43,805 bases of DNA, taken from positions 1 through 43,805 of the forward strand of contig JAOPWP010000087.1 in the NCBI GenBank assembly GCA_025965615.1, written 5' to 3'. The notes beneath the pieces are model-generated. The model had not been told where the DNA came from. It ran no database searches and saw only the letters and a list, made by a program, of their open reading frames with translations. Shown piece by piece: positions 33,003-36,663 of the stretch (positions within the stretch are counted from its first letter, which is position 1; each line of letters begins with the position of its first letter). This DNA is from Frankiales bacterium. GTDB taxonomy: Bacteria > Actinomycetota > Actinomycetes > Mycobacteriales > SCTD01. The position numbers were made by a program, and so were the translations under genes.

Positions 33003-33413
33003 ATGACACCGATCGGGTACGACCACAAGGGCTTCGACGCACTGCTCGGCCTGCAGATCACCTCCGCCACCGAGGACGAGGTCCGCGCCGAGTTCACGGT
33101 GCGCCCCGAGCTGCTCCAGCCGTACGGCCTGCTGCACGGCGGCGTGCTCTGCTCCGTCGTCGAGACGGTGGGGAGCGTTGCGGGTGCCGTCTGGTACGGC
33201 GACCGCGGCAACGTCGTCGGCACGAGCAACCACACGAACTTCCTGCGAGCGGTGCGCGAGGGGAAGCTCACGGCGGTGGCGACTCCGATCCACCGCGGAC
33301 GCACCCAGCAGCTGTGGTCGATCGACGTGCGGGACGAGCAGGACCGCCTCGTCGCGCGCGGCGAGCTGCGCGTCGCGAACCTGCCGACCGGCAACCCGGT
33401 CACCGAGGTCTAG
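33003..33413 (+). CDS. PaaI-type hotdog thioesterase
   Basis: A 136-aa hotdog protein. The core signature LLHGGVLCSVVETVGS (about residues 45-60) supplies the active-site helix, with the acidic residue E58 of SVVET and HGG loop typical of PaaI/ComA-like acyl-CoA thioesterases. It hydrolyses acyl- or phenylacetyl-type CoA esters. ATG 33003 fits the TACGCT box 7 nt upstream; the frame-open GTG at 32982 is upstream of that box. It lies 55 bp before the palindromic repeat array. Confidence 0.92.
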   Translation: MTPIGYDHKGFDALLGLQITSATEDEVRAEFTVRPELLQPYGLLHGGVLCSVVETVGSVAGAVWYGDRGNVVGTSNHTNFLRAVREGKLTAVATPIHRGRTQQLWSIDVRDEQDRLVARGELRVANLPTGNPVTEV

Positions 33414-33468
33414 ACCGCGCCCCTGCGACCAGGGGCGCCGGGTGCCTGGCCGGTGCCAGCCTGAGCAC

Positions 33469-33707
33469 GGGTTCACCCAGCCGATCATCCAGCGGGACAC
33501 GATGATCGGTCGGGTGGCCTCCCACGCCCACACCTGCGTACGGGTTCACCCAGCCGATCACCCAGCCGGACGCGATGATCGGTCGGGTGGCCTCCGACGC
33601 CCACACGTGCGTACGGGTCCACCCAGCCGATCAAGCAGCTGGACACGATGATCGGTTGGGTGGTCCTGCAGGCTCGTCGCGTTCGAGCGGGTTCACCCAG
33701 CCGATCA
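33469..33707. repeat. 73-bp palindromic tandem repeat, three copies plus a truncated fourth
   Basis: The arm CACCCAGCCGATCA occurs at 33474, 33547, 33620 and 33694, i.e. periods of 73, 73 and 74 bp. In the first three copies a matching arm TGATCGG(T)(C/T)GGGTG follows 15 nt later (33503, 33576, 33649), so each unit contains a 14-bp stem and 15-nt loop; copy 3 has T where copies 1 and 2 have C, which restores an A-T pair. Copy 4 lacks the right arm. The array sits between convergent genes and has no coding frame, as the period is not a multiple of three. REP/BIME-like element or a protein-binding array are possible. Confidence 0.9.
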
Positions 33708-33722
33708 CCTCGAGCGGGGCTG

Positions 33723-33757: not shown

Positions 33758-34990
33758 CTAGACGGCGTCCCTCGGGACGAGGGTGCGGCGGAACGCGAAC
33801 CCCACTGCGGCGGCCGCGACCGCCCCACCCAGGGCGACGAGCAGGGCGGTACGGGCGCTGCTGCTGTCGGCCACCGCGCCCGAGGCGGCAAAGCCGGCGG
33901 CCACGCCGACGCCGAGCCCGGAGTTGAGCCAGCTGAAGCCCTCCGTGCGGGCGGCGGGCGGGACCAGCGGGTCGACGAGACCGAAGGCCCCGATCAGGGA
34001 CGGGCTGATGGCGATGCCGGCGAGCAGGGCTGCTGGCGCCATCAGCGCGACGCTGGGCGCGAAGGTCATGGGGACGAGGCCGAACGCCAGGCCGACCAGG
34101 GCGATCAGGAAGCGCCGGTGCAGCGGCGCTGCCCAGTGCACGAGGCCGTAGCCGAGACCGGCGGCCGCGCTGCCGCCGGCGACGAGGGCCAGCAGAAGCC
34201 CCCCGGCGGCGGCGCTCCCCCGCTCCTCGGCGAAGGCCACCATGCTGACCTCGACGGTGCCGAACAGAACCCCGACGAACAGCATCGAGACGGTGAGCGT
34301 GCGCAGCCCCGGCGAGACCAGGGCGCTCGGGTGTCGGCCGCCTGACGCGCTGCGCACAGGAGGTTCCGTGGAGCGTTGAGCGACGAGCGCGAGGGTGCCG
34401 ATCGCGCCGAGCAGCGCTGCGAGGGCCAGGCCGACCGCGGGGTCGAGCAGGGCGCAGGTCACGACCACGAGAGGACCGAAGACGAAGACCACCTCGTCGA
34501 CGACGCTCTCCCAGGCGTAGGCCTTCGCGATGTCGCCCTGACGGTCGGCTGCGGTCAGCAGGTCGCTCCACCGCGAGCGCACGCACGACCCCAGCTGCGA
34601 GGACGAGGCGCTCATGACCGCAGCGGCGGCGACCAGCCAACCCGCCGGCGCCTGCGTCCCGGCGAGCAGGACCAGTGCGAAGACACCGAGAGTGCTGAGC
34701 CCCAGCGCGAACGGCAGCACGACGCGCTGACCACGGCGGTCCACCGCTCGGGAGATCAGGGGGGCGAGGACGGCGAGTCCCAGGGCGTAGGCCGCGCTGA
34801 CCAGCCCGGCCAGGGCGTACGAGCCGCGGCGGTCCTCGACGAGCAGGACCGTGCCGATGCCCAGCATGGCGATCGGGAGGCGACCGACCGCCGCGGCCCA
34901 CGTGAAGGCTGCGGCGCCGGGCGTGCGCAGGAGCGGGCCGTACCCACGGGTCAGAGCAGGAGAGGAGCCGGCGCCCGCAGTCGCTGTCAC
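33758..34990 (-). CDS. Major facilitator superfamily transporter
   Basis: A 410-aa protein with about 12 hydrophobic segments. The cytoplasmic loop 2-3 motif reads ISRAVDRRGQR (near residues 79-89), a variant of the MFS GxxxDRxGRR. The middle is basic and hydrophilic, as expected between the two halves. The GTG at 34990 overlaps the stop of the enoyl-reductase-like gene (GTGA), so the pair is co-translated. Substrate unknown; the coupling to a lipid-type enzyme suggests an exporter. Confidence 0.88.
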   Translation of the reverse strand: MTATAGAGSSPALTRGYGPLLRTPGAAAFTWAAAVGRLPIAMLGIGTVLLVEDRRGSYALAGLVSAAYALGLAVLAPLISRAVDRRGQRVVLPFALGLSTLGVFALVLLAGTQAPAGWLVAAAAVMSASSSQLGSCVRSRWSDLLTAADRQGDIAKAYAWESVVDEVVFVFGPLVVVTCALLDPAVGLALAALLGAIGTLALVAQRSTEPPVRSASGGRHPSALVSPGLRTLTVSMLFVGVLFGTVEVSMVAFAEERGSAAAGGLLLALVAGGSAAAGLGYGLVHWAAPLHRRFLIALVGLAFGLVPMTFAPSVALMAPAALLAGIAISPSLIGAFGLVDPLVPPAARTEGFSWLNSGLGVGVAAGFAASGAVADSSSARTALLVALGGAVAAAAVGFAFRRTLVPRDAV

Positions 34991-36360: not shown

Positions 36361-36657
36361 CCATCCTCTCGGTGTACTGCCCAGGCAGGTTGGTCAAGCG
36401 TGACGGGCGGGTCTTGCCGATCGCGGTGTGGGGCCGGTGGTGGTCGTACTCGTGCAGCCAGGCCGGTAGTGCCTTTCGGCGGGCTGACTCGCTGGAGTAC
36501 ATGCGCTTGGAGGCCCACCGGTCAGCGAGGGTGCGGTGGAAGCGTTCGATCTTCCCGTTCGTCTGTGGGCGGTAGGGCGGGTGCGCTTGAGGGCGATGCC
36601 GAGCGCGGCGCACGTACCGGGACATCCCGCACGGCCCGGGTGAGCGTGCGCCACCAC
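36361..36657 (-). pseudogene. IS481-type transposase C-terminal remnant, frameshifted
   Basis: Minus-strand peptides spell the end of an IS481-family rve transposase: ALGIALKRT in one frame, then PYRPQTNGKIERFHRT, ALPAWLHEYDHHRPHTAIG and SRLTNLPGQY in another. A frameshift near 36585 separates the pieces, and the catalytic N-terminal part is absent. No ends or target duplication were found. It lies between the enoyl-reductase-like gene and the photolyase, and marks past insertion. Confidence 0.85.
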
Positions 36658-36663
36658 GACCAG

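Follow-up and report, generated by a model that had tools for sequence, protein, structure and literature searches.

A lineage-specific REP/BIME-like repeat of rigidly spaced 62-bp dyads in a Frankiales genome, a putative site for a dimeric protein

The 43,805-nucleotide stretch of Frankiales DNA analyzed here (the window) carries, between two convergent genes, one array of a repeat family found at many intergenic loci of the same genome. We favor, somewhat above even confidence, the reading that this is a lineage-specific REP/BIME-like interspersed repeat whose dyad is a putative DNA-level site for a dimeric protein, multiplied into phased arrays. Its half-sites, their spacings and gene context, the restriction to one species, the absence of a RAYT transposase and the lack of covariation between arms are direct observations, whereas the protein itself is a candidate predicted from sequence.

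The array in the window and its genome-wide family

The preliminary description of this region reported a palindromic tandem repeat with a period of exactly 73 bp. TRF analysis confirmed the repeat (33460-33707, period 73, 3.4 copies, score 324), with copies starting at 33460, 33533 and 33606 and a half copy at 33680; the period holds for the first two intervals (73 and 73 bp), whereas the half unit follows after 74 bp. The convergent flanking genes were correctly recognized, and the repeat encodes no peptide repeat, as 73 is not a multiple of three. The features of the region are as follows:

33003..33413, plus strand: 4HBT thioesterase, 136 aa (Pfam PF03061, 60.5 bits)
33415..33440, plus strand: terminator-like hairpin (GCGCCCCTG-CGAC-CAGGGGCGC; z -3.1) assigned to the thioesterase gene and lying outside the array
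33460..33707, no strand: tandem array, period 73/73/74 bp, about 3.4 units (TRF)
33471..33489, plus strand: half-site F1 (GTTCACCCAGCCGATCATC), PWM score 32
33501..33519, minus strand: half-site R1, PWM score 25
33544..33562, plus strand: half-site F2, PWM score 30
33574..33592, minus strand: half-site R2, PWM score 25
33617..33635, plus strand: half-site F3, PWM score 27
33647..33665, minus strand: half-site R3, PWM score 27
33691..33709, plus strand: half-site F4 (the half unit described previously), PWM score 30
33501..33562, no strand: R-F dyad 1, 62 bp, core spacing 45
33574..33635, no strand: R-F dyad 2, 62 bp, core spacing 45
33647..33709, no strand: R-F dyad 3, 63 bp, core spacing 46
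33758..34990, minus strand: MFS transporter, 410 aa, convergent (Pfam PF07690, 60.3 bits)

Arm matches with at most two mismatches number 10 in the window, against 1.4 in shuffled sequence. Elsewhere in the window, an integrase-core transposase fragment (rve_3, 54.8 bits; 36395-36660, minus strand) adjoins a photolyase gene and is apparently what remains of an insertion sequence.

A blastn search of the array against its own genome (a MAG of 3.14 Mb in 282 contigs; completeness 99.5%, contamination 3.5%) returned many further loci. The genome-wide arm search that the preliminary description had proposed recovered 135 exact occurrences of the core CCCRRCCGATC, against 2 for a reversed-pattern control, and the exact R-F pair pattern is present at 38 places per strand, against none in the reversed control. 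Using a 19-column weight matrix for half-sites (the 17-bp GTYCMCCCRRCCGATCW plus flank), we identified 24 array loci (23 strong and one, on contig C221, weak) with 108 paired half-sites, a copy number that is a minimum, since the MAG is fragmented and many arrays lie near contig ends. The array is, as had been suggested, a REP-like palindromic array, and 23 further loci of its family exist in the genome.

Forward (F) and reverse (R) half-sites alternate strictly across these loci, the sole exception being one extra R on contig C38. The R-F core-to-core distance is 45 bp in 38 of the 43 units (44 bp in one, 46 bp in four), and F-R distances fall at 25-30 (32 cases), 37-39 (4) and 50 bp (4). The R-F arrangement forms a 62-bp dyad of inverted half-sites with GATC on both outer edges and outer ends of the form TGATC...GATCA. 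All five strong lone pairs in the genome (C74, C81, C110, C217 and C252) are R-F, as is a pair on contig C144 of a relative, G003; the only two F-R-only pairs are the weak C221 and one near a contig end in G003 (C113). Because the strong lone pairs are all R-F, the 62-bp R-F dyad is the natural unit, and not the F-R hairpin originally put forward, whose units it straddles.

Between loci, the spacer sequence is nearly saturated with changes (identity 0.38 against 0.32 by chance), yet spacer length hardly varies. Only a C (36/38) and its symmetric G (33/38) are strongly conserved; CGTACG was rejected as a conserved spacer motif, since GTAC occurs in only about half of the dyads and at varying positions. 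Groups of units at a single locus often match almost exactly, whereas different loci diverge, the pattern expected after local tandem duplication. Most distances between half-sites on the same strand are 72-75, 84 or 95 bp, corresponding to 7, 8 and 9 turns at 10.5 bp (Rayleigh R 0.86 at 10.5 bp). The long gaps also fit whole helical turns (P = 0.002), in a post hoc test on four distinct events at only three loci.

Known repeat systems and distribution among relatives

Like REPINs, the REP doublets of Pseudomonas fluorescens SBW25, the dyads combine two inverted conserved 16-17-mers at a fixed distance with a variable spacer of constrained length, and occur as many extragenic doublets, sometimes in tandem clusters (PMC3116915). 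In REPINs, however, the spacer forms a hairpin in which compensatory changes are reported to be common, whereas the dyads of this genome lack such a spacer and their pairing falls below chance; REPs, moreover, bear the tag GTAG, and their mobilization is attributed to RAYTs (PMC3116915). The GTAG- and CGTC-tagged REPs are likewise palindromic and mostly 3' of coding regions, and the CGTC type also occurs without a dedicated transposase, but their sequences are unrelated and their units measure 20-40 bp instead of 62 (PMC3733652, a text in which the word 'Actinobacteria' is absent). Neither GTAG nor CGTC is present at the palindrome ends here, the outer tetramer being GATC on both. BIMEs (alternating, regularly spaced REPs; PMC2817692) share with these arrays the alternating half-sites, the two alternating spacer lengths, tandem growth and intergenic position, but the palindromic unit of a BIME is itself a stem-loop, whereas a single half-site here is not a palindrome. 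Helical quantization of the period does not appear in the portions of the BIME accounts drawn on here, one of which describes BIME-2 as sites of DNA gyrase binding and cleavage (PMC6379681).

The preliminary description had suggested an adjacent RAYT, but neither this genome nor 23 others of its family yielded a tyrosine transposase of the PF01797 type, in searches that did detect the positive controls. Lacking a RAYT, a GTAG/CGTC tag and a hairpin spacer, the array is REP/BIME-like without being placed as a member of either class. Rfam returned no match for the window array or for the sampled elements of relatives. The array was also correctly judged not to be a CRISPR: its repeats are inverted and its spacers alike within an array.

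In G003 (thioesterase 82% identical) and in G001, the thioesterase gene remains next to the MFS gene, with no array between them. Likewise, cysM and murI lie about 30 bp apart in G003 and about 1.4 kb apart in the present genome, with two arrays flanking one gene. This gene (L088, contig C38, 998-1950), which encodes about 310 aa and matches DUF559 weakly (E 0.019), is not found between cysM and murI in G003 and represents a gene insertion bounded by the repeats. The arms are absent from the other orthologous G003 sites compared; the sites corresponding to C250 and C252 carry a different palindrome, which may be coincidence, since such palindromes are common in G003. Two pairs were found among the G003 loci examined, and none in 456 kb of G008. 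Across some 85,000 genomes scanned, with own-genome records possibly excluded, there were 12 scattered single matches, G003 among them. One viral contig matched the repeat; plasmids and phages gave no match. The exact repeat family is essentially confined to this species.

Sampled G003 DNA contains GATC-bounded imperfect palindromes with several unrelated arms and recurring spans of 56, 61, 62 and 69 bp, and low-copy families of such palindromes were noted at L140, L142, L146, L147, L149, L155 and L159. A central palindrome, GACACGCCsGGCGTGTC, is common to elements in G003, G006, G008 and G018 (L191, L192, L197, L201, L227-L237 and L241), in which GATC stands at a symmetric, species-specific distance (15, 27 or 32-33 bp); the dyad of the present genome is without this center. 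A text search of a collection of papers for the central palindrome GACACGCCGGGCGTGTC found no mention of it. The spans of relatives' GATC-bounded palindromes (37, 61, 69 and 70 bp) are not all whole-turn multiples, which counts against the DNA-site reading favored here. A separate 15-bp tandem repeat of the AGCAACTGGGCGGCC type in G008 (L178, contig C6, 14878-15024) would encode a short peptide repeat.

These data bear on the possibility that the repeats are miniature elements of a purely selfish kind (MITE- or REPIN-like), with half-sites kept as terminal inverted repeats for a transposase lost or encoded elsewhere and arrays as by-products. The TGATC...GATCA outer ends, the empty orthologous sites such as thioesterase/MFS in G003 and G001, the other low-copy GATC-bounded families in G003 and the lineage-specific distribution all suit such elements, and a transposase synapse could equally be served by the rigid R-F spacing. 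However, a PF01797 transposase is absent from all 24 genomes; among the 100 of 135 arm-core places listed, no arm pair bounds a transposase-sized element in this genome of 282 contigs; no target-site duplication is evident by eye at the lone pairs, whose flanks are too diverged for exact empty sites; and helical-turn phasing is not expected of a passive element. We therefore regard a purely selfish origin as rather unlikely.

Arm complementarity and gene context

The arrays are all intergenic according to codon-usage gene calls, which are approximate. Including two G003 loci, 8 arrays lie between convergent, 11 between tandem and 3 between divergent genes, with 4 undetermined at contig ends. 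A stop codon usually lies no more than about 50 bp away from an array, and the nearest facing stop is at a median of 18 bp (21 loci of this genome with one). From sequence, we take the neighbors to include groEL (two), metK, purM, prfB, RNase J and murI. At two loci (L097, contig C110, near 1150; L108, contig C278, near 2325) the TGA stop of the upstream gene is apparently provided by the dyad's TGATC end. By their position in G008 the loci are dispersed, five of them loosely grouped within 180 kb of a single contig.

A position 3' of genes, including the 8 convergent loci, could suggest RNA hairpins that terminate transcription, possibly in both directions, or stabilize mRNA 3' ends, and the three F-R hairpins of the window array do fold better than shuffles (RNA z -3.2 to -5.2). 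The 14-bp stems described previously exist, but the first two carry two mismatches each and the third one. The pairing-improving change noted in copy 3 is likewise real locally and reflects no family trend. In R-F dyads, variable columns are complementary less often than expected (2.52 against 3.21 after re-pairing arms, z -3.0), F-R arms also fall below their re-paired expectation (z -1.5) and a per-column test agrees that arm positions do the opposite of covarying. Nor does pairing continue from the arms into the spacer (4.11 against 4.60 pairs, z -1.5; mean folding z -0.2). Arm complementarity below chance together with non-pairing spacers indicates that an RNA or single-stranded DNA stem is not what is conserved, contrary to the initial emphasis on the stem. 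The anti-complementarity could reflect selection against perfect palindromes and not protein contacts.

Other observations also argue against RNA hairpins. A scan of the array region found neither promoter nor terminator, and no T-tract, so that the stem followed by a U-tract of an intrinsic terminator is missing. A separate hairpin stands between gene and array in the window, at C202 (groEL) and at C243, and the groEL hairpin is kept in G003, where the array is absent. Three arrays lie between divergent genes, and the fixed R-F spacing is unneeded for a loop. Taken together, these results make a terminator or stabilizer role improbable. A chance slippage product, of which near-identical units inside one array might be a sign and which the preliminary description expected to occur only here, is refuted by the R-F pattern (38 places per strand against 0) and by 24 loci sharing half-site and spacing with unrelated spacers.

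A candidate site for a dimeric protein

Under the DNA-site reading that we favor, a sequence-specific candidate protein would bind each dyad as a dimer, which would fix the 45-bp R-F spacing. Adjacent dyads would be kept on the same helix face, in steps of about 10.5 bp, so that binding would be cooperative along the array and would probably form an architectural or topological node locally, 3' of the genes and close to them. Copying or insertion would have brought the repeat to its loci, where tandem duplication would then have lengthened the arrays.

More tentatively, the family to which this actinobacterium belongs may harbor a RAYT-free class of GATC-bounded dyads with species-specific arms, several relatives sharing the GACACGCCsGGCGTGTC center, that evolved here into helically phased architectural arrays for a candidate cooperative protein. 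The bacterial palindromic repeats studied to date are mostly explained through RAYTs and hairpins, and the family described here fails both tests while following a clean geometric rule, a rigid dyad with whole-turn periods. This rule, in the absence of RAYT or hairpin, makes the old question of parasite versus architectural site directly testable: the predicted binding unit, its spacing and the corresponding mutants are defined.
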